The position numbers were made by a program, and so were the translations under genes. 60,762 nucleotides of DNA, taken from assembly GCA_009602725.1 (NCBI GenBank), contig WELB01000020.1:377461-438222 (forward strand), given 5' to 3'. The notes below the pieces were generated by a model that was given only the letters and a program-made list of their open reading frames with translations, was not told the origin of the DNA and made no database searches. Positions 15,476 through 56,115 of the stretch are shown in pieces; the stretch's first letter is position 1, and every line of letters begins with the position of its first letter. The stretch comes from Spirogloea muscicola (lineage: Eukaryota; Streptophyta; Zygnematophyceae; Spirogloeales; Spirogloeaceae).

Positions 15476-15596
15476 GGGCTGGCTTCTCGCAGCCCTTGCC
15501 CCCATTCAAAGAAGTGGCACTCCCAGCGGGGGGGCAAGGGCTGTGAAAAGCCAGCCCGAAAAAGAATTGACAAAGGTTTGAAGGGGCCAAATGATG
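15476..15596. repeat. Pair of hairpin modules in inverted orientation
   Basis: A plus-oriented copy (GGGCTGGCTTCTCGCAGCCC, then TTGCCCCC) at 15476-15503 faces a minus-oriented copy at about 15530-15596 (GGGCAAGGGCTGTGAAAAGC, CAGCCCGAAAAAGAATTGAC). The arms GGGCTGGCTT..TTGCCCCC pair with about 26 of 28 bases, giving a long hairpin with a loop of about 25-30 nt. The minus copy continues into the LINE fragment that follows. Confidence 0.8.
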
Positions 15597-15599
15597 GAG

Positions 15600-16281
15600 G
15601 GGCCTAAAAAGATGGCCGAGCCTGGGGAGCTGGCCGCTCATGTTCTGCGCTGTTCCCACGGCGGAGAGCGGACAGCGGCACACGACCCTCTCCGGGATGC
15701 GATGCATGGCATCCTTGTGGAGGCTGGCTTCTCGGTGGCAGCCGAGAAATCCGCCGTGATGTCGCTCCAGCAACGGGCCGACGGTCTCCACGCTCGTCGC
15801 GTCGACCTTGTGGCCACCCCACCAGCCGGCGGGCCACGTCTTCTCCTGGACGTGGTGACCACGGACCCGTATGACCGCTATCACCCAGCCCAGTGCGCCA
15901 CCAAGGCTGGGTATGCGGTAGCCTGCGCCGCTCGGGCCAAGGAGCTGAAATACGCAGATCACCCGCGGGAAGACGAGTTGTTCCCGCTCGCCATTGATAC
16001 GCACGGGGCGCTGGGCGCTCGGTGGCTCGAGCTGCTCAACCAGCTCTAACGCCACGCCATTGTCCGCCGCTTCCATGGAGAGCCGGTGGACTCCCATGCA
16101 GCAGGGTCGCTAGCGCAGGTGTACCGCATGCGCTTGGCCGTTCTCGCTGCAGAGGTCTATGGCCCGCGCGCTGCACCTGCGTGCAGGCAGAGCCCTCGCT
16201 GCTGCCTCTGGCTCTGGCCAGGAGACCCGCTTCCAGGAACCCAGTCTCTCTGACCTGAGGCTGCTTAGCAGGGGTTACTGA
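15600..16281 (+). mobile_element. LINE-like retroelement fragment, C-terminal ORF region and 3' end
   Basis: An open frame from 15591 to 16049 reads ELAAHVLRCSH, HDPLRDAMHGILVEAGF, VDLVATPPAGGPRLLLDVVTTDPY and PLAIDTHGALGARWLELLNQ. The sequence then continues after a stop with RMRLAVLAAE, ALHLRAGRALAAASG and SLSDLRLLSRGY-stop in shifted frames. The pattern of a His-rich start, a (V)DVV/TDPY block and a PLAxxxxGALG block is what I know from the region downstream of reverse transcriptase in some plant and algal LINEs. No reverse transcriptase or endonuclease is present here, so the copy is 5'-truncated and dead. A near-identical copy lies inverted at 16608-17240. Confidence 0.7.
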
Positions 16282-16577
16282 GTGCTTCGTAGCTGCTTCG
16301 TTTCTTTTTGTGCTTGTTGTTCTTTGTGTTTCTGCCTGGCCTGTGGCTCCGCTAACATGAAAAGAAAGTGCGTCCAAATTGAGTCTTTGGCTTTGGACAT
16401 TGTCCATTCTTTTTGGGCTGGCTTTGCCAGCCTCTCTTCTCTATGGGCGAGCACTTCCTCTTGAAAAGATGAAGGGCTCGCCCATTGAGGATAGGGGCTG
16501 GAAAAAGCGAGCCCCAAAAAGAATGAACAAAGGACGAGAAGGGGCCAGGGGAAGTACGGAAAACAACAAGCACCAAA
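16282..16577. repeat. Spacer between two tail-to-tail LINE ends, with opposed hairpin modules
   Basis: Starts with the 3' UTR TGCTTCGTAGCTGCTTCGTT and ends with its inverse AACGAAGCAGCTACGAAGCA. In between are a plus hairpin module (16396-16455, TTTGGGCTGGCTTTGCCAGC) and a minus one (16470-16547, GGGGCTGGAAAAAGCGAGCC). Confidence 0.8.
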
Positions 16578-17240
16578 AAACGAAGCAGCTACGAAGCACT
16601 CAGTAACCCCTACTAAGCAGCCTCAGGTCAGAGAGACTGGAAGCGGGTCCCCTGGCCAGAGCCAGAGGCAGGGCTCTGCCTGCACGCAGGTGCAGCGCGC
16701 GGGCCATGGACCTCTGCAGCGAGAACGGCCAAGCGCATGCGGTACACCTGCGCTAGCGACTCTGCTGCATGGGAGTCCACCGGCTCCTCATGGAAGCGGC
16801 GGACAATGGCGTGGCGTGAGAGCTGGTTGAGCAGCTCGAGCCACCGAGCGCCCAGCGCCCCGTGCGTATCGATGGCGAGCGTGCGTCTTCCCGCGGGTGA
16901 TCTGATCTATTTTAGCTCCTTGGCCCGAGCGGCGTAGGCGACCGCATACCCAGCCTTGGTGGTACACTGGCTGGGTGTGAGCGGTCATATGAGTCAGTGG
17001 TCACCACGTCCAGGAGAAGACGTGGCCCGCCGGCTGGTGGGGTGGCCACAAGGTCGACGCGACGAGGGTGGAGACCGTCGGCCCGTTGCTGGAGCGACAT
17101 CACGGCGGATTTCTCGGCTGCCACCGAGAAGCCAGCCTCCACAAGGATGCCATCCATCGCATCCCGTAGAGGGTCGTGGGCCGCTGTCCGCTTTCCGCTG
17201 TGGGAACAGCGCAGAATATGAGCGGCCAGCTCCCCCAAAA
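16578..17240 (-). mobile_element. LINE-like retroelement fragment, inverted partner of 15600-16281
   Basis: On the minus strand the frame 17238-16912 reads GELAAHILRCSHSGKRTAAH, HDPLRDAMDGILVEAGFSVA and RVDLVATPPAGGPRLLLDVV, almost identical to the plus copy. It then loses frame at SHPASVPPRLG, where the partner reads YHPAQCATKAG, and continues to the 3' end near 16608 (frame RLLSRGY). Frameshifts and the missing 5' part make it non-functional. Confidence 0.7.
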
Positions 17241-17324
17241 AGCGCTAAGCAGCTCGAAGGGGCCTGAAGATGCTATGTCAGAACGGGGAAGGATGGACCA
17301 CTCAGTAGTTACGAGTGAGGAGCC

Positions 17325-17625
17325 TCAAATCCGACAGACTAGCTTCTGGAAACTATCCCCCTGACGAAAGCCGGAGGCCGCAGCGAGAGCACGGCCAGCA
17401 CGCAGATGCAAAGGCGTGGGCCATGGACCGCTGAAGGGAGACGGACAATCGCAAACGATATACCTGAGCCCACGAGCCAGCGGCGTTGAAGTCAGCCGGC
17501 TTACCGCGCCTGCTGGACACAGCGCGCCGCGCAAGCCTGGCCAGCAGGTCGAGCCACTGGGACCCGAGGGCCCCGTGCACGTCCACGGCCAGGGTTACGA
17601 ACTCATCTCCCCATTTGGAGAGCCA
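17325..17625 (-). mobile_element. LINE-like fragment of a second subfamily
   Basis: Minus-strand frames give WGDEFVTLAVDVHGALGSQW, LLARLARRAVSSR, then, after a frameshift, LHLRAGRALAAASGFRQGDS. It is equivalent to the PLAIDTHGALGARW to RALAAASG part of the copy at 15600 but clearly diverged. Only the last third of the C-terminal region is present. Confidence 0.6.
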
Positions 17626-17799
17626 CTTCCTGGATGCACCTGGCTGGCTTTTACAGCCGCTCTGTCAAAGTCGAGGAGGATCAATCTATTTCTTGTACGG
17701 TTAGCCAACTTGTTCGCTCTCTTGGCATTCGTTCTCTCACCTGTGACTCTCCTGTTATTGTTGGTTGTGGCGCTCGCGATGGACGTGCACGCGGCGTTT

Positions 17800-17904
17800 G
17801 GCAGTATATCGTCAGGAAAAACGTCAGGGGGATTGTTTCCCGTCAGGGCGACGTCATTCCACGCTAGTTACTCCGACTTGCACTTACTGACAAGAGGTCA
17901 CTGA
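17800..17904 (+). mobile_element. LINE-like 3' end fragment
   Basis: Plus-strand frames show SRQGDVIPR, then SYSDLHLLTRGH-stop at 17904, matching the terminal segment of the other copies (GFRQGDV...SDLHLLTRGY). No upstream ORF is recognisable, so this is a very short truncated copy. Confidence 0.5.
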
Positions 17905-17989
17905 GAGCCCCCTTGCTGTCGACTTAGCGATTAGTATCTTGCTTTTTGCGCCATCCGGCCCTTTTCAGACCTTTCCTTTGGGGGAGCCT

Positions 17990-18370
17990 TTGGGAGAGTC
18001 ACTTTCATTTGGGCTGGCCTCTCACAGCCACCAGTCTATTGGGAAGCGCTGTTTCTTTCCAACATCTAGCTTTTCAAATCTGAGGCTCCTCACTCGAGCT
18101 GTTGAGTGGTTCATCCTCCCCCAGTTCTGAGATAGCGCTTTTGGCACCTTCGCAGTCTGGCCCCTGTGAACCTTGTCTTCTTCTTTGGGCTGGCTTCTCA
18201 CAGCCCTTGCCCTCATTTAGAGAGACGTGGTTGGACCTGCGCCGTGAACATTTATGGCGGATACGCTTAGCTAGTCGGGATATTCATGTGTTCACTCGTG
18301 GGGTCCTCGAGACCCCTTTATCTCAGCCATTGCCCCCATTGGGAGAGCCACTTCTTCCCGCCACCGCCCT
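17990..18370 (+). repeat. Three successive hairpin modules and short LINE-end remnants
   Basis: Modules at about 18005-18050 (TTTGGGCTGGCCTCTCACAG), 18183-18230 (TTTGGGCTGGCTTCTCACAG, then CCCTTGCCCTCATTTAGAGA) and 18321-18360 (CAGCCATTGCCCCCATTGGG, then AGAGCCACTTCTTC). Between them are degenerate LTRxY-type endings at about 18078-18105 and 18270-18300. Confidence 0.65.
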
Positions 18371-18399
18371 GTCCTGGAAGCGTCTTTCTCTTCCCTGAC

Positions 18400-19440
18400 C
18401 CCATCGCAGAAACATACACTCAGATCATCGCAGAAACACGTAACAGGAGGTAAAAGAACTAGAGGATAGATTTGCCCCCAATCATGCGAAGGGGCCAGTT
18501 ACAGGTCTGCTTATTGAATGCCATTGAATTCCCGAAGTGTAGGAGAGATCACATCCAATTCATGCCGCATATTTTATGACAATTAGGATTTAATCATGTT
18601 ACCAACAAGATCAGCGGTCTATCAGCCTCTGTGCTTGCACCCATGCTTGATGAGCTCTTCTGGCTTTACCCCATGTCTGCTTGTAAGGTTTTCCCGACAA
18701 CACGAGCTAGGCTTTCCTTGATGATGAAGATCTTCTGGCTCCACCTGAAGTGTGCACCACCTCATTCTACCATATTCTGGGTGGTCCTTCTCAGTGACAT
18801 CAAGTAACCATCCTATAGCAAGTATGACTCCCTACGAGCTCATACAAGACCTCGCCAAGAATCTAGTCATGCTCTCATCTATGCCCAACTGCTTGAAGGT
18901 CAAGCCACATAAGAGAGATAAGGTTAACTACTCGACAATACCTTCGCTGCTGTGATGTGTGAGTGTCACCATGCAGCATTTGGAAGCGCTCCTCGTATGC
19001 AGAAAGATTGCTAGGTATGGGTTGGTTGGTATCTCCGTCTCTGGGTTATTCCTCGACCTTGCTGCCGGACTGTTTGCCTTCAACATCAATCGCTTAGACC
19101 CCAGAACTGCGACTGGGTCGGTTGACATGTAAGGGGTATGGGGCGAAAGGCACAGTTTTACAGTTCAGTGATTAGGTGCCCGCTATTACACGGTGTACCG
19201 GGTCACCAAGGAGCTGGCCAGTATCTGACATGGCCAGCTGGTAGAGGGTGCGCTCCATGAGCACCGCAGATTGATGTGGCAATCCAGAACGCGAGGAATA
19301 ATGTGGTGAAACGAAAGGCTAGGAATGTTGGGAAATATTTAAGGTGCTGGCAGCCGCCACCTGCTGCTACTCTAAATTCTACCATCATTAGCTACACTTC
19401 AGCACCTGGGTGACCAATGGCACCAGCCAGAGCGTCAGTG
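18400..19440. other. Unassigned stretch
   Basis: More AT-rich than its surroundings. Short ORFs only (up to about 67 codons), none recognised. No repeat of the local families is evident. It may be old degraded repeat. Confidence 0.4.
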
Positions 19441-19447
19441 ACGCACT

Positions 19448-19672
19448 TCAATTGCACGACGAGTGTGGAAGATGGTCAAGTACAGATATACGTACATGCT
19501 GTTGCCCATGACTCAATAATAGCCGCGTTCTATAGCAGGCAACGATGGCTTGCGGGACACTAGAATGCCCTAAGCTACCCGCCTGACTACGTCGGCGCGC
19601 ATCGACATGCTGTGCCAGGCGATGGAGGAGGGAAGACCACTTCGTTCCGTAGCCGCCGTATATGTCCAAGGC
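19448..19672 (-). mobile_element. LINE-like fragment, diverged copy
   Basis: The minus frame reads MDIYGGYGTKWSSLLHRLAQ, aligning with the DTHGALGARWLELLNQLA block of the copy at 15600. Its 3' end has no recognisable terminal tag. Confidence 0.5.
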
Positions 19673-19726
19673 GCATGGGAAGAAATGGTCGCGGTCCTTA
19701 TAGGAGAAAAGCGCGGCCAGATTGAC

Positions 19727-19775
19727 TGGTGGCTGGGAGAGGCCAGCCCAAAGGATTGGACAAGGTCTTAAGGAG
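19727..19775 (-). repeat. Hairpin module, minus orientation
   Basis: Contains GAGAGGCCAGCCCAAAGGAT and TGGACAAGGTC. On the minus strand this reads GACCTTGTCCA...CTTTGGGCTGGCC and follows the LINE 3' end at 19818, as expected for a 3' tail. Confidence 0.6.
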
Positions 19776-19817
19776 CCGGAGTGCTAAGTACTAAGACAGC
19801 AGCAAAGGGGACTCACA

Positions 19818-20277
19818 GTAACCTCTAGTCAGTAGATGCAAGTCGGAATAGCTAGCAGGCGGATAGACGTCGCCCTGACGGAAGCCGGAGGCCGCCGCCA
19901 AAGCGCGGCCTTATAATGTCGCTCCTTCTTTTTCTCCGCATGATGTGTCGCCCAACCTGGCACAGTCGGCGTGGGTGCCTTGGGTGGAATGCGTCGATAA
20001 GAACGGCGTCGAAGAGAAGACGAGGCCCACCGCTCCGGGGGGTAGCAACCACATCCAGAGGCCTGATGTAAGGTCTGCCGCGCTTGTGGAGTACCGGCAT
20101 GATGCCCGGCACCTCCATGGCCGCATGGTAACCTGCATCGTGGACCAAGCCATAGATAGCGTCTCTGAGAAGATTGTGGGAGGCAATAAATTCTCTTCCC
20201 TCCACACGTCGAAGCATGTGAGCTGCCAAAGAGATCTCATCCTCCGTGTCCTGGTGTGTTGTTTTTCCTCTCGGCAC
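19818..20277 (-). mobile_element. LINE-like fragment with internal deletion
   Basis: The minus frame from 20277 reads SLAAHMLRRVEGREFIASHN, LLRDAIYGLVHDAGYHAAME and LDVVATPRSGGPRLLFDAVL, homologous to but clearly diverged from the copy at 15600. After KRRSD it jumps directly to the C-terminal part: another frame gives RALAAASGFRQGDVYPP, then SYSDLHLLTRGY. The HGALG block is deleted. Confidence 0.65.
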
Positions 20278-20284
20278 CGTTTTG

Positions 20285-20370
20285 TGGCCTTTGTGGCCTT
20301 CGGATATTGTCCATTCTTTTACGTGCTAGCTTTGCTAGCCCCTCTTTTTCTGTGGGCGAGCAATGTCTTC
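20285..20370 (+). repeat. Hairpin module, plus orientation
   Basis: Reads GGATATTGTCCATTCTTTTA, GTGCTAGCTTTGCTAGCCCC and GTGGGCGAGCAATG, a variant in which the stem is GGCTAGC/GCTAGCC-like rather than GGCTGGC/GCCAGCC. It sits immediately upstream (in LINE sense) of the fragment ending at 20277. Confidence 0.55.
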
Positions 20371-21151
20371 CGAACGATGGCCACATTCGCAATGACGAAT
20401 GCCAGCCAAACAAAGTGGAGGGAGGCCGAGATGGTGGTGGACGGCCGTCCGGAAGGTTCGTCGGAGAGCCGGAGGGTTTCATAGATCGGCAAAGCATTGA
20501 GCCACTCCGACGCCCCCGGAGATCTGATGGAGTGAAGACGAGAGAGCCCACGCCCATCCTCCTAAGCAGAGCTCTGAGGTGGCTCATGTCTTGCTCATTG
20601 GCTGCGCGTGAAAAACGAGCTTGAGCCTTCAGGTCAGAGCATCTTGCCCACGCTGCAAAGTCGACCTGATCTGCCGCAATTGATGGGAAGGATTGGAGGA
20701 GGTCTCTGCAAACGTCAGAGAGGGACACCAAGAAGTCGCTTTTATTCACAGTCGACATTTTTACTGCCATATTCGCCTTAGATTGTTGGACTGGCAAACT
20801 CTCGCATGAGATCATCTTTGGCCTGCAGTTTGTGCACAAGGAGCTCATTGTCGCTGACGAGATGCCATAAAAGAAGGTCCAGCAGCTCGCATCACAAGGG
20901 CTCAGATGATGCACGGAGCGAGATAGTATCCATGCCCATCACGCCTTGTGGAGACCATAAGGTCGCAAGTCCCCTTGGTCGTGTGCCGCAATGAGATCAA
21001 GCATTTTTGAGATGGAAGGGGTAACCAAACGTTGGCCTATCTTCTCCTCACCACTTTGTTCCAAATCCCATAGCTCAGGCATTGCACTGTTGAGAAGCTG
21101 TCGTGCTTGCTGATGTGCTGTCTGCTCGCTTGTCGAGAGTGTCTGCAACAC
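20371..21151 (-). other. Unrecognised minus-strand ORFs, possibly an upstream part of the adjacent retroelement
   Basis: Two consecutive minus frames (21151-20939, then 20914-20237) could encode about 290 residues, with segments such as SISKMLDLIAAHDQ, SDVCRDLLQSFPSIAADQVD and EQDMSHLRALLRRMGVGSLV. I recognise no domain. Position and direction fit a less truncated part of the LINE copy at 19818-20277, but the sequence itself does not prove it. It could also be a degraded host gene. Confidence 0.3.
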
Positions 21152-21638
21152 ACCTACAGTGCGGGCTTCATGCCCATCCTACTGCATGGAGACCACCTCA
21201 GGCATGCGGGAGACCACCTTTGCTGACTGCACATGGTTCTTTTATCCCCGCCCTGGTGGCAAGATGCGGTTCGACAAGGTCCACCATCCCCCCAAGGTGT
21301 TGTCATATATAGGAAGGTGATGTACTTTGAAATGTACATTATTGAAAATAGATATGCAGACATTCCACCTGCGTTTACCTGCCTACTATGTCCTATAACC
21401 CAAGGAGGGTCTAGCTGTAAGAAGACGTCACTGACATGCGAAAGACTCGGTAGCACAGCTTGCAACAGCAGAGAAGCTCACGCAGGTGACAGTACTAGCA
21501 ACTGAGGGCGTGTGTCGGTTAGCCACTTTGTACTAATCATATTTCCATGAGGGCATGTCCGCTACAACCACGGAACGTGCAAGAGGAGCAGAGTACCAGC
21601 GCTTCCTATCTATGTGGAACAATGGCTGTGAGTGGCCA

Positions 21639-21671
21639 GCCCAAAGAGTTGAGCCTTCCAACTCTTTGGGC
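21639..21671. repeat. 13-bp perfect foldback with a 7-nt loop
   Basis: Left arm GCCCAAAGAGTTG at 21639-21651, loop AGCCTTC, right arm CAACTCTTTGGGC at 21659-21671. It contains the GGCCAGCCCAAAG edge of a hairpin module, so it may be a rearranged module. Confidence 0.85.
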
Positions 21672-21979
21672 CTTTGCTCATTCCAGGGCAGGACAGGCTG
21701 ACCTGCGGGGTAACACAAAGACCTGCTTTAATATAGACGGTCGTCTACCATAGCTGTCTGTCGGTACGAGATTTTCGTGACTACATCAACCCGATGCACG
21801 GTGTTGATGATCATTGACCAGACGTCATCCTTTGACCGGCCTGTAGTGATTACCCATCAGCTGGGGGCCACTCACTGCGGTCACTGCAAGCCGCTCTTGT
21901 GACATCAGCAGCCGCATTCTTCGTAAGAAGAACAAGGAGAAAGAAAGTGGCTCCTTCAAGGACTGGAGTGTGTATTGAG

Positions 21980-22280
21980 TGATGCAGGGCCAGAGTGGCC
22001 AAGTACGACACGCTGACCACCCGGCTGGAGACGAGTTCCTACCCCTGGCCGTGGATGTGCACGGGGCTCTCGGGTCCCAGTGGCTCGACCTGCTGGCCAG
22101 GATTGCGCGACGCGCTGTGTCCCGCGGCTGACATCAACGCCGCTGGCTCGTGGGCCCAGCTTCATCGCATGCGCCTTCCAATTTTCTCCAGCGGTCCATG
22201 GCCCACGCCTTGCATGTGCGTGCTGGCCGTGCTCTCGCTGCAGCCTCTGGCTTTCGTGAGGGGTATAGTTCTCCGGTCTG
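21980..22280 (+). mobile_element. LINE-like fragment, same subfamily as 17325-17625
   Basis: A plus frame reads GDEFLPLAVDVHGALGSQWL and LLARIARRAVSR, then after frameshifts ALHVRAGRALAAASGFREGY. The sequence closely matches the minus copy at 17325-17625. 5' part absent. Confidence 0.6.
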
Positions 22281-22394
22281 TCGGATTTGAGGCTCCTCCC
22301 TCGCCGCTACTGAGTGGTCCCTCCTCCACCCATTCTGACATAGCATCTTCTGGCCCCTCCGTTATTGTGGTCCCTTCGACCCCTTTGTCACTGA

Positions 22395-22610
22395 GTACAG
22401 GGTTACTGAGTAATACGTAGCTGCTTTGTTTCTTGTTGTGCTTGCTTTTTAGCGCTTCCCCTGGCCCCCTTCTCGTACTATGTTCCTTTTTTGTTGGTCT
22501 GGCTTTTCCAGCCCCTATCCTCAGTGAGCGAGCCCTCTCTTCTCTATCACTTCTTTTCGGGCTGGCTGGCTTTTCACAGCCCTTGCCCCTATTTGTAAAT
22601 CCACATCTTC
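22395..22610 (+). repeat. LINE 3' UTR-like sequence with two hairpin modules
   Basis: GGGTTACTGAGTAATACGTA then GCTGCTTTGTTTCTTGTTGT repeats the 3' UTR found at 16275-16320. It is followed by TGGTCTGGCTTTTCCAGCCC at about 22497-22520 and CGGGCTGGCTGGCTTTTCAC plus AGCCCTTGCCCC at about 22557-22590. Confidence 0.65.
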
Positions 22611-22668
22611 CAAGTACGAAGGCAAGCACTACGACAGATTCACATCACCTGCTGCTAAGCCGACCCGC

Positions 22669-22710
22669 TCAGTAACCACGAGTCAGCACGTAGACTGATG
22701 CCCGAAAACC
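22669..22710 (-). mobile_element. LINE-like 3' end tag
   Basis: The minus frame ends GFRASVYVLTRGY-stop. Only the last dozen codons look like the retroelement family. Confidence 0.4.
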
Positions 22711-23035
22711 GGACGGCGATTGACAAGTCCCGGGTTGCGCGTACACGCGCAACCCGCGAGGCCCCTGGCGCTCGTACACGTACGAGACACCATCCTTCCC
22801 CCAACGGTGCTCGTATCGGGCGGTCAACGGGGAAGGAAAAGAAAAGCCATCTGCAACGGCGGAAACCCCCATCATGACGAGGCCCCGGAGCGCCGTCTGA
22901 GCGGCGCCCCCACTTAGTACCTGGTCGTCAGCCGCCGCCGCCGGCGAGCCGGAGTGGCCTCGCCGCCCCCGCCATGGCGACCAGGCGCAGAGCTCGCCAT
23001 CCGCCTCCATCACTCAGCCTAGCCCCCGCGCCGCC

Positions 23036-26000: not shown

Positions 26001-26758
26001 CCAATACTCGTACAGCTAAACAAATTGATCCTCTCTCAGGGGTTTTGACATTCTTAGATCCTGCCACACAGGGTTGCAGGAGATGTCTCCTTGACAGCAC
26101 TCATACTTGTCCACTTCAGTTTGCAGCACACAGTGCAGCTTTGGTCTTCAGCGGCCAGCGTGTCCATGCAATTGATCTTGTCTTTAGGCACCACTGGTGG
26201 TGCAGCTCAGGCTATACTATGTGAACCTTCCTGGACTCTTACAAGTTTGTTGTTGGTTGCAGAACCGGCTTGGCGCCAATGGTTACAACTCTCCAGGAGA
26301 TGCAAATTACAACTCTATCAGTGAAGACAGGCCTCTCGCCGGTGGTGCTGTTGCCATCTGCACCTTGGCTGCCTTCGAGAACAACGTTTACTGCTACAAT
26401 GTGAACACAAAAGCAACGCAGAAATACTCCGTTCCAAACCCCCAGCTCATTGTGTATGTTTCCCAACCTCAGGCTCGCGGCACGCAACCTATTCGTTAGT
26501 CCAAGCTTAGCCTGTGAAGTTGTCATGATTGCTTCTAGCTTGCTCATCCAACCGATGGGTTGTGTTTACCTGCTGCTCAGGTTCACGCCTGGCCTGCTGA
26601 ACGGCACTGACCCCGCAGCCGGCACGGTCAACACCACCTTCTCCTGTGATACCCTGAACGGAGGGGGCCCCTCGCCAAGTGGCGCTCATCCTAGTGTTCA
26701 CGCAGCTGGGCTCCTTCTGAGCTTGTCCATTCTGGCTGTGATGTCCTGGTCGCTCTAA
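23036..26758 (+). CDS. Secreted, probably GPI-anchored, beta-propeller-like surface protein
   Basis: Function unknown. Ten exons: 23036-23206, 23433-23527, 23715-23880, 24243-24381, 24616-24774, 24991-25139, 25447-25617, 25827-25973, 26263-26453, 26581-26758. They sum to 1566 nt, or 521 residues, with all phases matching. The start ATG opens a clear signal peptide (MASATLLVAAALFACLLGDA). The body has short beta-rich segments resembling YVTN/SMP-30-like propeller blades: GAVFVIDTTQQTVAATVALP, GSLLFDI, GRVFVACTSEGV, YLLSVSPDDNVIHTL and GMVAIDLAAVF. Several NxS/T sites (NLT, NMT, NYT, NGT, NTT) fit secretion. The C terminus is a small-residue stretch followed by a hydrophobic tail (AGLLLSLSILAVMSWSL), typical of a GPI signal. 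The propeller call is structural guesswork from local sequence. A second gene of similar style is at 50825-53904 on the other strand. Confidence 0.75.
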
Positions 26759-28159: not shown

Positions 28160-28380
<221 letters not shown>

Positions 28381-31800: not shown

Positions 31801-32825
31801 GCACCTGCATAGCCACGTTGGTGCTGCATGATGAAGCGCGACAGAAGTATGCGCTATTTGATGACCTTTGAGAGCACTCAAATTAGTGTATCTTGTTTAT
31901 TGGCCACAATAGCTCGCCATGATCCTCTTAGATTTCTATCATAAGGCTCACACTTTGGTAACTTTGTTCAGTTGCGGTAGCACATTGGCTTGCACTGGAG
32001 GCGGAACATGCATAGCAGTAAATGAAAACAAACAATGCCTTGTGAAACTCAGTCCTTCTCCTTCGTCCTCCCACAACGTGCGCACAAAGTTGTGGGACAA
32101 TGAAAATCACAATGATTTAGCCTGAGAATGTCGAACAAAATGTGATAATTCACCCTTTATATCTGATGGATTCTGCGTTGCAACGCAGTTACACTGCAGC
32201 AGGAATGGTTGCATGGCACCTGATTGTGGTAGCATTGAAGCCTGGAACGCCTTTGACACTTATTAAGGTATTTTAAGATATGAGAAGTGCGACTCTTCCT
32301 GTAGTAGCAAGGATTGAGCATGCGCATTGGAAAGTAGAATATTAATGGCATGAAATAGAATCACTAAGTAGCTGAGAGATTAAGGACAGGTATTTCACAT
32401 ATACTCGGTAGCTACAGTATGGTCCGTCTTTATACTGACTACAGGCTGAAATAACAGAGTAGCCACTCTTTTTCCTCGTATGTACTGGCTCACCCTAGTT
32501 AGTGCCTCTTAATCAAGAAAATTTCCTTCCTACCCAGCGCCTCAGCCTTTCAAGCGGGCCGACTCCTTCTACACGCCTTGCTTCCTTTAGAAGAGAGTCA
32601 CTTTCTTTCCGGTACTGCAATTTCAATCTGCAGCTGCTGACTAGATACTGATCTGGCACTTTCAGTGGTGTCTACGCTCTCCGGCACCGTTGTACCCCAT
32701 TCCTTGATGGGCCTCTTGAGAGCCTCGTTCTCCTGTGCAGGCTTCTAGAGTCCTCGCCACTTTTGAGAGGAGTAGCTGTGATCTCGTGCATGGCTGTGTG
32801 GTTGCAGCACCTTTCGGCTCATGGC
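31801..32825. other. Intergenic between the FAD-Rieske copies
   Basis: AT-richer sequence, no gene recognised. Its left edge is the 3' UTR of copy 1. Confidence 0.45.
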
Positions 32826-32886
32826 TCTTCGGACCTTGTCCACTCCTTTGGACCTTGTCCATTCCTTTGGACCGTGTCCATTCTTC
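32826..32886 (+). repeat. Three tandem copies of a 19-bp unit
   Basis: The unit TTTGGACCTTGTCCATTCC occurs three times in succession with one or two changes per copy. The same phrase (GGACCTTGTCCATTC) forms part of the hairpin module tail, so this is a small amplification of it. Confidence 0.85.
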
Positions 32887-33054
32887 CCAGCCACCTTCTC
32901 GAATTGGGCGAGCTGTCTGTTTCCGAGGAGCTGCATCTACTTCCTGAGCAGAAACACTTTTGCAGCCTTCTCAAGGGTTGATCCGCGGAGATCATGAGTG
33001 TAGGGCCGAGGGCTTTCACAGCTGACACTCACCAATCCAAATGACGGGGATAGT

Positions 33055-33270
33055 TTCCCGGCAGCTAGTCTGTCGGATTTGAGGCTCCTCACTCGTAACT
33101 ACTGAGTGCTCCTTCCATCCTCCCCCGTTCTGACATAGCATCTTCAGGCCCCTCCGTAGCTGCTTAGCGCTTTTTAGGCCCCTCCATCATTTGGCCCCTT
33201 TCGAACTTTTGTCAATTCTTTTTCGGGCTGGCTTTTCACAGCCCTTGCCCCCCATTGGGAGTGCCAATTT
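33055..33270 (+). mobile_element. LINE 3' end remnant with hairpin module
   Basis: Begins CTGTCGGATTTGAGGCTCCT (frame SVGFEAP or SLSDLRLLTR) and ACTACTGAGTG, then GCTTTTTAGGCCCCTCCATC, TTTGTCAATTCTTTTTCGGG, CTGGCTTTTCACAGCCCTTG and CCATTGGGAGTGCCAA. From 33170 it is almost the exact inverse of 15520-15615. Confidence 0.7.
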
Positions 33271-33399
33271 CTTCAAATGACGAGCAAGACGTTACCAAGG
33301 CAGGTTGGGTTCAAGCGGTTAGTCCTCCGGGCGACCACTTCAATAGCCGCAGATCCGTGGGCGGTCCAACTGGATGCCACGCTGGCGAACAGTCCCCAG

Positions 33400-43329: not shown

Positions 43330-43385
43330 ATCGCCCCAGCTGGGCTGGCTTTTCACCAGCCTCGAAGACCATCACTTCCAAGCTT
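43330..43385 (+). repeat. Hairpin module in the promoter region of the pyruvate kinase-like gene
   Basis: Contains CAGCTGGGCTGGCTTTTCAC, CAGCCTCGAAGACCATCACT and TCCAAGCTTG. Same module as in the LINE-rich blocks, here isolated. Confidence 0.55.
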
Positions 43386-43518: not shown

Positions 43519-43549
43519 CCGGCGGCTCAGCTCAGCGCTCTGGCGCGGG

Positions 43550-44278: not shown

Positions 44279-44514
44279 GATAGCTGATCTGACAAAGAGC
44301 GGCGGGCAGCTTGGCCGGGCGTCACTCCCATCCAAATTCAGGTCCTTACGAGGATTATATCACTGCCAGGCGCTTACGCACATGACTGTTTGTGTTTGAC
44401 CCGGGCGTGACTGGAAGTATATCTCACTGCATCCCTTCACGAGCTTCTTGATGATGGAAATCAGCAATTTGTCAATTGAAGGTATGATGCTGAGTGTTGT
44501 TGGTTATCTTGCAG

Positions 44515-47500: not shown

Positions 47501-49523
47501 TTGCCTGCGATGGAGAGGTCAATTATCCTTAAGAAAGGCGACATATTGGTTTTGACCAGGGAGGCAAGCCCTGGAGAGCCAGCAGAGTACAGCAAGACTG
47601 GAAAATTAGTCAAACCTGCTCATGTATCTTGTGAAATACCTACGGTCTTTGAGAATGTCAAGGTACTAAGCTTGGCCCTCATCTGGTATGCTGCATCAGA
47701 AGTTGCACTGCTATTGTGTGCTTTTCAGCCTCCATGTCTGCTACTTTGTCAAACCCATAGAGTATTCTTGAGATTGGACTAGAGGTTTGTGCACAATTTC
47801 TGAGTTATGCAAGTTGCTCTCTCAGAGTGGTGAGCCAATAAAGCTCGATGATGGAAAGATTGAAGGGGTGATCAAGGATGTAAATAAGGATGAAATACGA
47901 ATGAAAGTTACTCGAGCAGCTGATAAAGGAAGCAAGCTCAAGAGTCAAAAGGTCATGGTTCACATCTTACGTAGCCTCTTGCATGATTATCTATGACATA
48001 GTAGCTGCAATGTTGCTCAATTGCTGAGATGAGCTTAGATATGTGTTTCTCACAGAGGCTAGGATCTCCACTGCATTGCACTAATATAATTGGAATTGCT
48101 GTTGATCTGCCAGGCTATCAATCTGCCTGACAGCACACTAGACCTACAGGGGCTGACCAAGCAGGATATCATGGATCTTGACTTCATAGCTGCCAATGCC
48201 GATATGGTTGCATTCTCCTTTGTAAGCACCACAGAAATGCTGTGCTCCTTCATTCGTAGACTAGTGGTGATCTAATCTCTTACAAGCTCAGAATATCACT
48301 TTGTGCAAGGAAACGGCAAGCTCTTACGAAGCTCACTACCTTCTGCAGGTCAACGATGCCAGCGATGTTGCTAAGCTTCAAGAGGAGCTGAAGCTGCGAG
48401 GAGCTTGTAATCTAGGGATTGTGCTGAAGATAGAGACCAAACATGGCTTTGAAAATCTTCCTTACATGCTTCTTCAGGTGCAGCCCATGTGCCCTGCTGA
48501 AGACCTCCTGCAGCTTGGCCTTTACTTCGTTTTGGCTAATCTCTTGGAGCAATTCAAGGTGTTTCAGCCTGGTTATCTGACAACATACGTCACAGCAGAT
48601 GCTCTACTTCGATGTGCTTAATGTGCAACCACTTCCGATCAGCAGGGCATGAAGACTGGCAACCCCTTGGGAGTCATGATTGCCAGGGGTGACTTGGCCG
48701 TGGAGCTCGGATGGGAGCGTTTAGCTGGTAATCAAGTGCTTCCGGCAAACAAGTCCAGAATGACGGAGTGAACCAACAATTTGTAATTGTTGGCATCACA
48801 CAGCACAGGACGCCCTTGCCAAGTGTATCACCTTCCTGTATGTGTGCCGCGGTGCTACTGTGCAGAGGTTCAGGAACAGATACTGTGGTTGTGTGAAGCT
48901 GCGCACGTTCCTGTGATATGGGCAACGCAGGTATGTCACGCATGCATTGTCTGGCCTCTTGCACGTGTGTCATGCCATGTTCCCACAGAATTTCTAATTC
49001 GTTTACAGGCAATGGTTGTTCTGTGCAAGCAGCAATGTTGGATTGGTTACATGAAGGTGGAATGTTGCAAGGATATCTTCCATGGTGCATGATGGTGTTG
49101 GTCTCATGTCAGGTACTTGAGAGCCTAGCAAAGGCAGGACTACCTTCAAGAGCTGAGATTACAGATGCAGCTATGGGGGAGAGGTCAGGCCCATTCTCAC
49201 TGCTGTGCTCACTCGCAACAGCATGCAGACATGCCCATAATAAGTACTGTTGAAAGTGGTGCAATCCCTCTTGCCTAAAAGCAACCAGCATGAGCAGCAT
49301 GGAAGAGCATGTCATACACCAGATCCTGCCTCACAGGTCCATCTGCTGCGCATGCAGGGCCGAGTGTGTGATGCTGAACAAGGGCCCCCACATTGTGAGG
49401 GCAGTTAGCATCTTGGCCGACATCTTGGTGCGCATGAGCAGCCACCAGTCCAAGAAGCAGTCCATGCTCCGATCGCTCCACGTATCGCAATGCTTTGAAG
49501 AAGGGGCAACACCGCCAGCCTGA
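44515..49523 (+). CDS. Pyruvate kinase-like protein without the allosteric C-terminal domain
   Basis: Would transfer phosphate from phosphoenolpyruvate to ADP. Exons: 44515-44970, 45172-45247, 45464-45580, 45784-46008, 46214-46338, 46454-46526, 46830-47036, 47163-47249, 47417-47662, 47826-47951, 48114-48221, 48349-48477, 48646-48727, 48866-48930, 49113-49183, 49358-49523; at least 785 residues. The N-terminal 250 or so include a helical stretch and the family mark [20 protein letters not shown], then [16 protein letters not shown]. Catalytic parts are intact: ARVNCAHD (the R.N...H site), [18 protein letters not shown] with Lys and Glu, the metal-binding Asp in [17 protein letters not shown], and [16 protein letters not shown]. 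It ends soon after the last barrel strand ([18 protein letters not shown]), so the usual PK C domain is absent. This matches the plant family typified by Arabidopsis At3g49160 and its bacterial relatives. Activity is inferred from conserved residues. Confidence 0.9.
47334..47369. repeat. 17-bp perfect foldback with a 2-nt loop in an intron of the pyruvate kinase-like gene
   Basis: Left arm 47334-47350 (GCAGTGTGTAGTTCAAA), loop AA, right arm 47353-47369 (TTTGAACTACACACTGC). It lies in the intron 47250-47416, 47 bases before the 3' splice site. Confidence 0.93.
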
Positions 49524-50824
49524 CCTCCAGCTTGGCTCGCAACCAGCGGTCAAACAGCGCGACCAGCCCGCCCCTTTTGGCCGCCAGTAAACAGAGTCAT
49601 AGTGTGATGCCGAATACTTGTACCACAGAGCCGCTGTAAGTGGCACTAGTCTCGGGCCAGCTCTACAGTAATTTCAATTATCATTGACCTACCTCTGCAT
49701 GTGCTCTAGATGGGCGCTCAGAGGCCACCTATGTTGATTTATACCTGCGCGATACTGTACCGCCAGGGGGAATGCAACCTGGTGCATTAGAGGCACAACC
49801 AGCCCGTCGCGTGTACCTTGCTCCTGAGGCTTGTCAGGGGTTAGATACCTCTGACAGCCTTGTAAGGCCACACTAGTGACTGAAGAGATTCATACATCAC
49901 CTAAAGAAGGTGATGTATGACATTCTGGCCTAAAAGGCATCTGTCTGAATGAGAAGGTTGGTCAATACTGGTCTGACATGACAGATGAACAAGGACGGTT
50001 GCTTGTTGGTTGTCAAACCACATTATCACTGATGATGTCTCATAGTATGTCATGTGACAAACACGCAAGCATGCTTATCCTTGATGTCCTTGCATAATAC
50101 AAGAGTGGCGCACGCTTCTGTGGCCTGACTGTCTCAGGACAGACTCGACCAGTTGCAGTACAAGTATCAAACCCTTTGGCTATGGAATGAAGTTTTTACC
50201 ACAACAATGTACTGCACAGCAGTCAAAGCAGTTGCGTCAAGTAGCTCGCTTTGCCTTCAAGTGAATTCTCATGTAAAGCAGCTGCAGCCTGCTGCAATGC
50301 ACAACCAAGTTAGTGATTGACGCGAAGAACCCAGCTGCAGCTGGAATGCAACCAGCCCACAGAGGCTTTCGGTTCTTCATGCCTAGCAAGTTTGGCACGC
50401 AAGCAATGTGCTGAGAGCTTCCGAGTCTGGCGCAGTCCCCCGATAATCAAAGCAGCACCTGGCAGCTCACGGCACCCTGGGCTCACAGCAATGCATCTCA
50501 AGGGCGACCGCAGAGGCAGTCCCTGTCCGTGGCTTGCAAGCCACAAAAATGGGGTCTTCGGTGCTATTCACGCGAGTGCCAAAAAGGTTTTGGGAGCAGT
50601 AGAGGGCCCAAGATAGGCCTGCGCCTGCGCACTCTAGTCGGCCTGTTAGACTCAGTTCCTGCAGCGGAACAGGTCCCATGCAGCCATCAATCCGTCACTT
50701 CTTCTTCCTAGCGAGACTGACCTCGCGTTGCCTGACACGCAAGACGCAATAAAACTGTCTCCGGAGCACCCTCCTCTTGAGGTTGCCCTGCCTGGCTGCA
50801 CGATCGTGCGCAGCGCTTGTCATC
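49524..50824. other. Intergenic between convergent pyruvate kinase-like and propeller-like genes
   Basis: No gene recognised. Contains both 3' flanks and the foldback at 49890-49920. Confidence 0.45.
49890..49920. repeat. 12-bp perfect foldback with a 7-nt loop
   Basis: TCATACATCACC, loop TAAAGAA, GGTGATGTATGA. It lies 370 bp downstream of the pyruvate kinase-like stop; there is no T tract after it. Confidence 0.88.
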
Positions 50825-53800
50825 CTAGCAGTGGCCCTTCTGGCCAGGAGCCAGCGGCGCACGCGGCGGCGAGGGCGGTCGGCCTGCGCGCTTGGCGCGG
50901 CACCCGTGCTTGGGGTGCTTCGCGTGAGATGGGTTGTGCTTCAGCTGGTAAGGCAGCGTCAGCACCACGGGCCGGCGCTGGATGCAGATGCCCTGCGGCG
51001 ACGCCGCGCTGCTTGCCTGTGGCAGCGGTATCTGGTACACAAGGCCCTCGCTACCGGGCTTGCGGTAGTTCACGGTTGCCAGATTGATGATCTTGCATAT
51101 GGAAGAAACAATGTCAGCTGCAAAGCCATCCTAATCAGCTGAACAAGAAACAATGTCAGCTGCAAAGCCATTCTAATCAGCTGAACAAGACAATGATAGT
51201 GGCCTGCCGGGTCCTCTATGCAGCGGTGTGCCTCTTCCGAGCATCTCGAGAAAGCCAAGTGCTTGTCGCTTTAATACGAGCATTGATTCTCCGTCAGCGC
51301 ATCTAACACTGTCGCACCTGGATGAAGGAGGCGGTGCCGGTCGTGATGGGCGCATATGCCTTGCTGTTGGAGGAGAACACCGCCAGCCTGCCCACGCCAT
51401 TAGCATCACTGCATGTGTGGAGGGGCATTAGGAAACATTGCTGTCAGTTGTGCTCGCTGCCACTTCCTGTTTCAGCAATATTTGCTGCCAATCCTGTTTC
51501 AGCGGACTTCCTGCTTTTATTTCCAAGCATCGAGCTCCATGGGGACTCCTTACGACGAGCATGGAGGCAGCAAGCAGTGGCTGGAAAGGCGTAAAGAATC
51601 TCAAACAAAATCTCGCAAGCAATTGAGGACCTTCTGGCACCTCGCAAAGGGTCAATACCAGCGGCAGACCACACCTGCAGGTAACTTTGTCGCATGGCAG
51701 CTTGAGGGTGCTGGAGGGGGTGCCAACGCGGCCACTTTTCACAACGTAGGGGATAAAGACAACGCCGGCGGCTGTGCGCACAAGAATGTTGGAGCGTGCA
51801 AGGTCGAGGTCGATGGACACAAGCCCCGTGGGACTGGGGCTCTCGACGGTGACCGTGGAGATGGCCGCCAGTGTCGTAAGCTTGAAGCTCGTCACAGACG
51901 CTTTATTGGACGCAATGGTCATCACAAGAGTATCGGTGCAGGTCACCTGCTTGGCTGGCAGGGCAGTCTGCAGATGCCAATGAAAACGGTTCTTTGAGCA
52001 TCAGCACTGAGCATCAGCACTGTGCAAGTGACTGACTGTTTGACATATACCTTGAAGGTGTTGTATCGGCTGCTGATTCTCCGCCATAGATCATTCATCT
52101 CATGCCAATCACAGGTTGAGTATTGTGGAAATACACACTATATCACTCAAGACTTCTGATGAGCAGTCGACAATCATCAAATTAAGCATGTCTTCAAATC
52201 CTATTGCTCCATCGCGTATCTTGTTATAGAGTTGATCTCACAATGCTCCTATAGAGCAGACCTGATCCTTGTAAAGCAAAGCTTACACCAGTTGCAAGCT
52301 TGACAGCATGGTGGCAGGCGGATTGCTGACATGTACCTTGACAGCGCCCACTTGCACAAACTTTTGCACCTTCGTCGAGTTGTCGAAGGCGAACGACACC
52401 AAAGTAGCTGTGCAAAAGCATGCCAGAATATCAGCTGTGTCCAATTTTGACAAAGCAGTCATCTGCCCGAGACAGGCTTTACCAAGTGCTCTTATTTTGA
52501 GCTAATTGTCAGTTGGCTCAGGCTTCTCGTAGAATGAACGGCCTTCTTAGTCGCGGAGGGAATAAACACACACATGAAGACGCATCGATGGCGATCATCC
52601 GTGTATCGGTGCAAAATTCCACCGACTTGCAGCTGAAGCCCCTGACACCGGTAATCTTGCTGGCCAAGAGAGTCTGAAGAATGCCTCCAGCTGCAAGTGC
52701 AAGCCAAGGCTATTGTCAGCCTTGGTTTAGGTTTTTGTCATGCCTTGACCACGCTGATCCTGATGGCGAGGCAGACGCCTCCTACTGCTCCATACAAATT
52801 GTTACTGACTTTCAAGCCAATGCAGAGGCGCCCTGCTAGCTCTGGCAAGCCACAACTGAATGATCTATTCGCTATGTGGAGACTGAAGGCATAAGTAGCT
52901 TACTTGTTGTGTCGATGACAACAATGTCGGCAGCAGTCTGCCCACAGGCGGCAAGGTACCGCCCTGTGGGGCTGAGGCTGATGTCCTGTGGCCCGAACGG
53001 CAGGGAGAGGGTCCCCTTGACGACAGGCCCGCCTGCGTTAGCGACGTTGATGAGAGCAATCTTCTTCTGGCTCGGCTGCGACACGTAGCCCGTGGTGCCA
53101 GCCAGATTGATCTGGCACTGCAAGGTTACCAAGCACCGCCGAGAGCACCATCAGCAAGAAGACTAGCACAGAAGACTAGCTGCTTCGACCCACTGCTGAC
53201 TACAAGGCATGCAGTATACAACAAGCCTAAATGTGCAGCACGAAGATGACGTGTCAGGTGAGGGCATGCACGCAAAGCGGTGCTGCTAGCGCCTGCCAAC
53301 CTGTCCGTAAGCTACACCAAGTGTAAGCGGCCGGCTACTGCCGGAGCCCACTAGTGTGTCCGTGACTTCATCAAACTGCCACACTCGCCCGTTGGGTGCC
53401 GACAGCAGCAGGCCGGGAGCTGCAAGTATGGCATGCACAGAGCCAGGATGACAAACTCGCCGTCACGAGCCGAATGGCCGCTGCAGCGGCAGTGCATGCA
53501 ACCGGGGGACCAGTATGGGCACGGATACATTGCAGAAAAGGTTGAGTACTATGCGCATCTTCTCAGCTGATAAGCTTGTGGCGGCATGAGGGGGGTTGGG
53601 ATGACACAGAAGAGCTGCTGATGTTCAGGGGCGGTTGTAAAAGCCAGCCGAGCACAACGAGAGGAAGCCATTGGCCACATGAGCGGAGCTGCAGACTGGG
53701 CAACTCAGGGCCCTCACAGTTTCCCGTGTCGGCAGAGAGGACATTGATTGAGCTGAGGCAAGAGGATGGGATCCCACTGGGAAGGGGGGCTCATCGTGGT

Positions 53801-53904
53801 ACTCAACCTGGTGGAGGTGGTGGAGGGGGTGACGAGGCAGCACAGGCAGTGCCGACCGTCGTCAGGACCAGCGCCAGGACCAGGGAGCTCCGAGTGGCAG
53901 CCAT
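50825..53904 (-). CDS. Secreted beta-propeller-like protein with basic C terminus
   Basis: Function unknown. Eight exons in transcription order: 53904-53808, 53419-53301, 53117-52904, 52690-52574, 52407-52337, 51967-51675, 51408-51318, 51130-50825; 1308 nt, 435 residues, all phases matching. The start gives a signal peptide followed by a proline run (MAATRSSLVLALVLTTVGTA, then SSPPPPPPP). The body resembles YVTN-type propeller blades: LLLSAPNGRVWQFDEVTDTL, PFGPQDISLSPTGRYLAACG, ADIVVIDTT, LVSFAFDNSTKVQKFVQVGA, LVSIDLDLARSNILV and GRLAVFSSNSKAYAPI. The last exon starts DGFAADIVSSICKIINLATV and ends in a Lys/Arg/Pro-rich tail without a hydrophobic GPI signal, unlike the similar gene at 23036. 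The final intron's acceptor lies inside a 41-bp tandem duplication. The propeller assignment is tentative; the secretion signal is clear. Confidence 0.72.
51105..51190. repeat. 41-bp tandem duplication spanning a 3' splice site
   Basis: The phrase beginning AACAATGTCAGCTGCAAAGC and ending TCTAATCAGCTGAACAAG occurs twice in direct succession with one C/T change. On the minus strand each copy carries GATTAG followed by GATGGC or AATGGC, so the acceptor of the last exon of the propeller-like gene is duplicated. Confidence 0.88.
52001..52030. repeat. Short tandem duplication
   Basis: GAGCATCAGCACT occurs twice in direct succession within the intron before the exon at 51967. Confidence 0.8.
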
Positions 53905-54770
53905 GCTTCCGCGCTCACTGCGAGGCACGGAGCGCCTGGTCAGCAGGATGGCAACGTGCTCTGAGGCTTCAGCAGGCAGCCAAGCATCGAGGAGCAGCCG
54001 GGCTGCCATTGTCAAGGGTGAGTCTCGTAAAGGGCTGAGGCCTCGAGCCAAAGCAACGAGCTCGGCAGGAGAACCAGCACCACCGTGGCAGAGCTTGCTG
54101 AGATTGCTGCACCCACATTGCCACTGGGCTGGTCTCGACGGCAGGCCACGAGGAGGAGGAGTGGACTGTAGGATGCCTCGCAAGGTGGGCAGCGACCCAC
54201 CTGATCGCGAGAGCTCCGAGCGGCGCCGCCTGGGAGCTGCTGCCGGCTGCTCGGTGGAGCTCGCCGTGGGCTGGCAGCTCGGGGCTGCGGCGGCGAGCCT
54301 GCGGCGCGAGGGCAGGCGGGCTCGGCGTCCGGATCCCGTCTTGGGGCTGCGGGCGGCGGAGGAGTCAGTCCTGCAGGGGGCCGCTGGGGGAGCAACGGTG
54401 GGAGCGAGGGGAAGATGGAGTAACGGCTGGGTGAGGAATGTGGAGAGAAGTGGGGTGGAGAGGGAGGCAGGGGAGGGAGGGGGAGAAGAGAGAGGGGGGG
54501 GGAGGGAGGGGCTGGCCACGCCGGGGCGACACCCCCCCCCCAACGGGCCGCTGACGGTCAACGCCGCGGGAAAGGCGGGGGCGCCCGCCACGCGGCGCAT
54601 CCAACGGACTTACCTGCCGCCGGCGCCGCGCCGCCACCTCGCGCCTCGGCAAAACCCGCTTCTTCGATCCTTGCCACCGGCGCCATGCCGACGCCGACTT
54701 GGCAGGGCTGGCGGAGTCGACGGAGTCGGTAGTCACGCGGGAGGGCGGAGAAACGTCGTCATGGACACTC
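53905..54770. other. 5' flank of the minus-strand propeller-like gene
   Basis: GC-rich; a purine-rich (GGGAGG) tract lies at 54460-54515. A long open frame across 53576-55135 on the plus strand reflects composition and shows no known domain. Probably promoter and 5' UTR of the gene at 53904. Confidence 0.5.
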
Positions 54771-55395
54771 TACATCTTGTACATTCGTTTGGGCTGGCCT
54801 TCTCGTCTTCATTGGGCTGGCTTTGCCAGCCCCTCTTCTCTATGGGCGAGCACTTCCTTTCACAGCCACTGCCTTCGAGTGGGAGAGCTGTTGTGCGAGA
54901 GGCCAGCCCAAAGAAATGCACAAGGTCCAAAGGGCCAGAGTCCCTAAAAGACCACAACAGATTTGCAGGAGTCATGGAGAGTAGGTTCGTACTTCTTGCG
55001 CCTTCTGGCCCTTTCAGACCTGTACGTTCTTTTTTCTGGGCTGGTCAATTACAGCCATCGCCCTCTACTGGACGAGTCTTCCTTCAGAGCTTGTACAGTC
55101 CTTTAGCCTCTTCAGGCCCCGCAGTCGCTGCTTAGCTCGTAATTTTGGCCCCCTTCGAACCTTGTCAATTCTTTTCGGGCTGGCTTCTCACAGCCCTTGC
55201 CCCCGTTGGGAGAGCCACTTCTTCTCCTTTGGGCTGTCCTCTCATACCCTAGCCATTGCATTCCATTGGACGAGCTGTTTCGTACCTTTCCGAGGTCTTC
55301 TTCGTCGAGGAAGGAGAAGCTCGTCCAATATTAGGGGACCCGTCACCCGAACACTGAGTTCTCCTGACCTCCGGCTGCTCAACAGGGGCTATTGA
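54770..55395 (+). repeat. Cluster of hairpin modules ending in a LINE terminal tag
   Basis: Plus-oriented modules at about 54775-54870 (two stems: TTGGGCTGGCCTTCTCG and TTGGGCTGGCTTTGCCAGCC), 55025-55080 (CAGCCATCGCCCTCTACTGG), 55165-55225 (TCGGGCTGGCTTCTCACAGC, then CCATTGGGAG-like CCGTTGGGAGAGCC) and 55228-55280. A minus copy at about 54895-54940 (GAGAGGCCAGCCCAAAGAAA). The block ends with frame SSPDLRLLNRGY-stop at 55395, a LINE 3' tag. Confidence 0.75.
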
Positions 55396-55439
55396 GCACC
55401 CAGCAGCCACTTGTGTCGCTGTGAGCTTTTACGCTTTTC

Positions 55440-55640
55440 TGGCCCCTTCGAACTTTGTTCATTCTATTTTCTGGGCTGGTCAATCACAGCCATCGCCCTC
55501 TACTGGAAGAGTCGTTCCTCAATGTAAGGCAATGGCTTTGAGAGGCCAGCTCCAAGTATTGTACAAGGTCTGAAAGAAAGACTCTTCCAGTAGAGGGCGA
55601 TGGCTGTACTTGGCCAGCCCCAATAGAAGACTGAGCAATG
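55440..55640. repeat. Plus and minus hairpin modules forming a 28-bp inverted repeat
   Basis: ACAGCCATCGCCCTCTACTG plus GAAGAGTC at 55486-55513 is repeated inverted as GACTCTTCCAGTAGAGGGCG plus ATGGCTGT at 55588-55615, with no mismatch. The arms are separated by about 74 bp that include GAGAGGCCAGCTCC. Confidence 0.88.
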
Positions 55641-55844
55641 GGCCGGAAGGCGCAAGAAAAGCACGACACTACTCTCCATGACTCCTGCGAGTGGGCGCTC
55701 TATAATCTATGGTCACAAAGTGTAGGGGGACTGCATTCCTGCGGCTGTTCTTTCTGACTTGCGGTTGCTAGGTAGAGGCTACAAAGTGATTTCTACATGG
55801 GACTTGCTTAGTTGTGTATCTCAAAATTTCTCTTTGGACCTTGT

Positions 55845-56115
55845 TGATTAACTTCGGGCTAGCTTTTCACCGCCCTCGCCCCTTTAGATGAGCTGCTTTC
55901 AAAGTGCAACTGGCACATGACTTCTGTGGCTGTACCGCGCTTCCCCCCTTCGGACCTTGCACCACCTTGGGACAATGTTAACTTTTACAGCCATCGCCGT
56001 ACTTTTCATGTGCTTTTAACACCAGAACAGAAAGCCATCGCCCTCTACTGGAAAAGTCTTTATTCTTTCTTTTTGTGAGCTGGCTTTCCACGGCCCTCGC
56101 GCCCTTCGGAAGAGC
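55845..56115 (+). repeat. Two further hairpin modules
   Basis: TTCGGGCTAGCTTTTCACCG then CCCTCGCCCC at about 55853-55885. The second is GCCATCGCCCTCTACTGGAA at about 56034-56053, then TGAGCTGGCTTTCCACGGCC and CTCGCGCCCTTCGGAAGAGC to 56115. Confidence 0.65.

Follow-up and report, generated by a model that had tools for sequence, protein, structure and literature searches.

A dispersed hairpin module of the alga Spirogloea muscicola as the probable 3'-terminal tail of related LINE families

Module copies in the window and in the genome

The window (the whole stretch of DNA analysed, 60,762 nucleotides of contig WELB01000020.1 from the alga Spirogloea muscicola, positions 377,461 to 438,222 of the forward strand) holds pieces of long interspersed nuclear elements (LINEs) and, scattered among them, copies of a short hairpin module (Table 1). 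This module is very probably the 3'-terminal tail, about 60-75 nucleotides (nt) long, of related retrotransposons without long terminal repeats (LTRs), that is, of LINEs with a single open reading frame (ORF) whose protein would recognise it.

Copies in the window were sought by BLAST with five tail-type sequences (A-E) as queries at E ≤ 0.01, and 31 were found, 23 on the forward and 8 on the reverse strand, with no match to any of the five types in reversed sequences. A preliminary description of this DNA had claimed more than 20 copies in both orientations and holds on both points, the strands being close to 1:1 across the genome. Twenty of the 22 coordinates it listed lie inside a BLAST match or at most 13 nt away; the copy at 55228 is picked up by a sequence-only profile alone (55226-55281, E 0.0003), and that at 43330 falls away, being matched neither by the BLAST tail types nor by the profile, and its stretch has one 23-nt match besides itself in the sequences examined. 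Within the window a model with structure gives 22 matches and one without structure 29.

The 77 sequences examined, three of which overlap others, contain 294 BLAST tail matches to the five types. Across the 153-Mb genome a 20-mer taken from the preliminary description occurs at 10,335 places with at most two mismatches, and its reversed pattern at none. Patterns for the single types with at most three mismatches match at 3,537 (A), 9,227 (B), 5,317 (C), 1,760 (D) and 4,234 (E) places, a sum of 24,075 from which the number of distinct sites falls somewhat short, since A copies ending in GAGC may count under the B pattern too; the reversed control of each pattern gives no genome match. The module family is real and very large. 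Rfam has no match to the module at the gathering score, and the titles and abstracts searched in the literature describe no such tail, which is no proof of its being unpublished.

Table 1. Tail copies and LINE coding pieces in the window (ORF, open reading frame; UTR, untranslated region)
Position	Strand	Feature	Evidence
3420..3470	-	E-type tail part	BLAST; model with structure
15458..15506	+	C-type LINE tail	BLAST
15509..15590	-	C-type LINE tail, tail-to-tail with 15458..15506 copy	BLAST; inverted pair
15606..16278	+	LINE ORF C-terminal part; two matches in different frames, 85% and 91% identity to L073 protein	protein match
16384..16462	+	A-type tail behind B-type ORF end and UTR (chimeric 3' end)	BLAST
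16471..16544	-	B-type tail of inverted LINE copy	BLAST; inverted pair
16637..17235	-	LINE ORF 3' part, inverted copy	protein match; inverted pair
17305..17607	-	further LINE ORF fragment	protein match
17609..17629	+	short C-type tail match	BLAST
18004..18057	+	E-type tail part	BLAST
18158..18224	+	C-type tail	BLAST
18318..18357	+	C-type tail, truncated near stem	BLAST; upstream-extension measurement
18360..18388	+	short D-type tail match	BLAST
19592..20977	-	degraded LINE ORF pieces, five matches	protein match
19705..19783	-	E-type tail, 3' of ORF end matched at 19818-19910	BLAST; protein match
20298..20362	+	A-type tail, stem GCTAGC/GCTAGC, sole both-sides inner-stem change	BLAST; stem scoring; covariation count
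21623..21646	-	short E-type tail match	BLAST; model with structure
22000..22263	+	LINE ORF 3' fragment	protein match
22466..22540	+	B-type tail	BLAST
22547..22610	+	C-type tail	BLAST
26709..26732	+	short E-type match (UTR/lead part)	BLAST
32823..32895	+	two E-type matches; lead in tandem (19-bp unit, 3 copies)	BLAST; model with structure
33191..33274	+	C-type tail, UTR and ORF end upstream	BLAST; family comparison
54776..54800	+	short E-type tail match	BLAST
54812..54856	+	A-type tail, by eye inserted within older tail	BLAST; upstream-extension measurement
54894..54941	-	E-type tail part	BLAST
55006..55080	+	D-type tail	BLAST
55080..55104	+	short E-type match	BLAST
55145..55224	+	C-type tail	BLAST
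55226..55281	+	weak tail remnant	sequence-only model
55440..55517	+	D-type tail, UTR and ORF end upstream	BLAST; family comparison
55533..55577	-	E-type tail part	BLAST
55576..55653	-	D-type tail	BLAST
55853..55882	+	C-like tail, decayed	BLAST
56033..56061	+	D-type tail, truncated at stem	BLAST; upstream-extension measurement
56067..56115	+	C-like tail, decayed	BLAST

The module as the 3' end of LINEs

The relation of the module to coding sequence was read from 30 loci, each surrounding a sequence that matches the ORF end at window 15591-16049 and taken as the top 30 of 150 scored from 8,462 candidates; with the window's own copy (L043) and a masked locus (L057) left out, 28 LINE ORF 3' ends remain readable. 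In 23 of these a tail on the same strand is no more than 450 nt from the matched ORF segment, the distance being 291-293 nt in 15 of the 23; of random positions in the window and L039-L042, 12% have one so near, and so the link to LINE ORF ends made in the preliminary description stands. Loci with a tail run from the end of the ORF and its stop through an untranslated region (UTR) of about 55-100 nt to the lead TTGTYMATTCTTTT and then the stem-loop GGGCTGG...CCAGCC; a second block of about TGGGMGAG and a pyrimidine end follow, and beyond them the sequence is unrelated. Four long copies (L073-L076) have open frames of 1,328-1,350 codons, and three of them are terminated by a whole tail. In all five types, A to E, copy-to-copy identity falls at one point just past the tail (n = 20, at least 40, at least 40, 15 and 21 copies). 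The tail thus ends the element, at a fixed distance from the ORF in the sampled family. That the core might be a piece of a longer ordinary LINE 3' UTR had been named in the preliminary description as what would refute its reading, and such a piece it is; the tail is nevertheless alike among several families whose UTRs differ. For the most part the scattered modules are plain transposon debris, many being insertions of hardly more than the tail, and from family to family this tail is well conserved.

The one long ORF would encode zinc fingers, a reverse transcriptase, a CCHC motif and a putative restriction-like endonuclease, the last assigned by motif. In the L073 protein Pfam finds a reverse transcriptase domain (RVT_1, E 8.3e-16), and R2 proteins are its sole reverse transcriptase relatives in the PDB at E ≤ 1 (best 9.7e-07). 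Patterns place FADD at residue 775, CCHC at residue 1110 and RVDL...LLLDVV at 1178, the last two by pattern only, with no Pfam match over this C-terminal CCHC/endonuclease-like region, and two C2H2-like motifs at the N-terminus, where Pfam matches stay below cut-off. These are new LINE families of a known kind, probably working like stringent LINEs.

The sixth tail type, F (14 copies, in L062, L074, L008 and others), lacks the GGGCTGG core and is predicted to form two hairpins, GGCC/GGCC and TTCGT/ACGAA; the ORF end that goes with it is by eye like those of the other types. Separately, a head-to-head LINE pair occurs at two places, L076 (G000:C338:8500-15500) and G000:C20:1131027-1135764, of which L076 alone was read. 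Both pairs have a spacing of 4,306 nt and one long and one truncated member, with open-frame lengths that agree between the two places, and would be either a duplicated segment or a mobile composite.

Structure and conservation of the tail

A stem scoring at least 5.5 follows the lead motif in 60% of 154 unique sequences and in 6.6% of 3,000 random stretches. Folding of types A and B suggested a 17-pair structure made of the inner stem and an outer stem between the lead and ATGGGCGA, and in an alignment of 60 of the 141 full-length tails, hand-chosen for spread, 77% of its cells pair, against 32-55% in slid controls. Fold z-scores are -3.9 for A, -3.0 for B, -3.2 for F, -1.8 for D, -0.6 for C and -0.4 for E. 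For the same alignment RNAalifold gives 8 pairs at -4.2 kcal/mol, two of them with a change on both sides; 95.4% of cells are paired as against 94.1% in shuffles (reached by 1 of 500), six cells are changed on both sides against 1.5 (reached by 0 of 500) and the score is 0.168 against 0.148 (reached by 8 of 500), a hint of a second small helix and not a proof. Such pairing would suit a structural signal; the clear result is the conservation of sequence.

Several observations weigh against a recognised tail. Covariation in the 17-pair structure is not above that in shuffles (0.067 against 0.073, reached by 476 of 500), with three pairs changed on both sides where shuffles have 2.9, and that in the 8-pair structure is weak: five of its six both-sides cells are one pair, the G-C columns 52/65 with E-type letters, and a control slid by +3 equals the slight excess (9 both-sides cells, score 0.177). 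The outer stem folds well in A and B and no better than shuffles in C and E, and so is not general. The ORF ends, being the best 30 of 150 scored for one window protein, come mostly from one family; five of the 28 (L047, L051, L052, L062 and L070) are without a tail, and the long copy L075 ends inside its own tail. The likeness of the tails could also come partly from recent common descent. Compensatory stem changes had been expected of a covariance model in the preliminary description, along with the high copy number and enrichment 3' of LINE ORFs that are found; its statement that the arms vary with pairing kept comes down to the GGCTAGC/GCTAGCC copy at window 20306, the sole both-sides change of a near-invariant inner stem in 60 aligned copies, and its hint of selection on structure to the weak results above.

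Compared between five families, each by one hand-chosen representative, tails are 71% identical (57% when shuffled), the UTR before the tail 55% (51%) and the ORF over its final 55-70 nt 63% (56%), and it is from a conserved tail next to a diverged UTR that the case for tail function is made. It is unlikely that the tails are mere debris, alike through a recent split of the families and without function; the missing covariation of the 17-pair structure and the relatedness of the ORF ends would suit this, but the UTR just upstream is near shuffled identity and the tail is not, and the point at which copies end is the tail's 3' edge. That the reverse transcriptase recognises such a 3' tail, as had been suggested from the first, would fit and best explain the conservation between families.

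Short copies as truncated insertions

A strict 3' anchor of about 25 nt, which finds nothing in the reversed control, gives 153 tails, from which upstream homology was measured to at most 700 nt. Among the 104 copies not themselves search targets, the homology above the anchor has a median of 69 nt, being under 70 nt in 53 and under 150 nt in 78, values that may understate the original length where another element was nested in the copy later or a relative is missing. Direct repeats at the ends exceed expectation in the 125 copies with usable ends: 42 have at least 6 bp (8.7 expected), 25 at least 7 bp (3.1 expected) and 16 at least 8 bp (0.8 expected, at most 4 in 50 shuffles), the longest, of 16 bp in L061, being by eye a nested-tail artefact. 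L002 has an E tail of about 30 nt flanked on either side by the 10-bp repeat GATGACCGCC, and a B tail, about 50 nt long, flanked by TTCGCCCTGC, likewise of 10 bp. The short copies are thus 5'-truncated insertions with end repeats like target-site duplications, and truncation together with such repeats is what the target-primed insertion of LINE RNA leaves behind when copying stops very early. No single target appears, the 188 distinct downstream flanks having no consensus beyond the pyrimidine stretch at the tail end. Neither is there a truncation hot spot at the stem (0.6, 0.9, 0.6, 0.9 and 0.4 counts per nt in bins up to 100 nt).

Truncation points fall at the end of another same-strand tail in 20 of 126 cases (2.5 expected, at most 8 in 300 simulations). 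Several of these are by eye a LINE nested in the body of another (L061, L042, L064), which looks the same, and no claim of tail self-targeting is made.

Many of the copies are short and not joined to an ORF, and one A-type tail of the window is preceded by an unusual stretch (16312-16382; 7 genome matches, its own included), as would suit a separate non-autonomous element like a short interspersed nuclear element, with a 5' part of its own and using the LINE tail. Such a hitch-hiking element, also raised in the preliminary description, is very unlikely, for the extensions have no common 5' end and run from 2 nt to the 700-nt measuring limit in the 104 copies (a sample that a rare class could escape), and what is conserved upstream within each type continues into LINE UTR. 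Still less credible is a DNA transposon or palindromic (foldback) element with inverted tails as its ends, for which the inverted tail pairs 15458/15509 and 16384/16471, a 1.6-kb inverted LINE pair and an excess of tail-to-tail over head-to-head pairs within 60 bp (21 against 4, plus 49 tandem) could speak, but the excess fades at 600 bp (38 against 32), a geometric effect of bodies of varied length lying between heads, and single short tails with their own end repeats already disfavour it.

Recognition and exchange of tails

With the module taken as a LINE tail, the LINE protein would bind the lead, the GGGCTGG stem-loop and the second block in its own RNA, nick the target and start copying at the short pyrimidine 3' end by target-primed reverse transcription. 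Copying would mostly stop early, leaving tail-sized copies in both orientations and nested in one another, and the tail would stay alike between families because only tail-bearing RNAs are copied.

Tails may also have passed between families. In L050 and L063 the ORF end is of B type and the tail behind it of A type; the two share the junction and differ in ORF length and downstream flank, and so a LINE with a swapped tail has probably been copied repeatedly. The genome has this junction at 10 places, each on a different contig and 5 of them exact matches (L050 and L063 are the two that were read), and the normal B sequence at that point at 412 places, of which at least 25 are units of one tandem array. 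The window holds a second chimera, with B UTR to about 16306 and the A tail from 16384, joined by the unusual stretch described above. That at least five LINE families share an interchangeable 3' recognition tail, copy each other's RNAs and swap tails by template switching is a tentative proposal, and the facts may well prove otherwise. If true, the LINE with B-type ORF end and A-type tail would be a natural tail-swap experiment, and the abundant tail-only insertions would show that most priming stops soon after the recognition hairpin.

The tandem array, at G000:C81:238049-242372, has at least 25 matches to the B-type LINE UTR pattern at an exact spacing of 179 bp, and is a satellite grown from a LINE 3' UTR.

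Other features

Beside its LINE-rich blocks the window has pieces of a cellular gene, for a phosphoinositide 3-kinase (3598-5942; PI3Ka 2.6e-24, PI3K_C2 below cut-off), a run of 123 A (14621-14743) and a perfect (GA)109 array (28160-28377). Elsewhere, the 3' flank of L052, beyond the LINE 3' part, holds by eye a plastid-DNA-like piece with a tRNA. Genes for chlorophyll a/b binding proteins are present in the genome. Loci from a PF00078 family search, considered as LINEs, carry by eye the integrase ends of LTR retrotransposons and were kept only as extra sequence. Ten reverse transcriptase loci of near-equal scores (L009-L018), with open frames above 1,170 codons, are by eye LTR retrotransposons and probably recently active.

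Relation to known LINEs and significance

Passages of PMC4640811 distinguish five LINE clades with a restriction-like endonuclease (CRE, R2, R4, NeSL including Utopia, and HERO), four of them mostly target specific and HERO with many non-specific members. The Utopia layout given there, with N-terminal zinc fingers, a middle reverse transcriptase and a C-terminal zinc finger and restriction-like endonuclease, is like that predicted for the algal LINEs, whose zinc-finger, CCHC and endonuclease-like motifs are assigned by pattern; unlike the mostly target-specific clades of these passages (PMC4640811), the algal tails are very many and dispersed, with no common flank. The likeness to R2 lies in the reverse transcriptase, to which R2 proteins are the closest among solved structures. 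The stringent LINEs of the L2 clade have an endonuclease of the apurinic type, unlike the restriction-like type to which the algal motifs point. In zebrafish ZfL2-1 and ZfL2-2, stringent LINEs of that clade, it was found by experiment that the protein must recognise a stem-loop of the 3' tail, as parts of PMC4176376 report, and the algal LINEs share a conserved 3'-terminal stem-loop, for which a like recognition may be supposed. Zepp and Zepp-like LINEs of green algae form clusters and belong to L1 according to portions of PMC8226300; the algal LINEs described here are clustered as Zepp is, but unlike Zepp have an ORF that resembles R2.

A very abundant repeat of this algal genome is thereby explained, its short dispersed hairpins being LINE insertions and not a new element. 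If the swapped tail is functional, it would offer a natural system for learning which part of a LINE RNA an R2-like protein must see.

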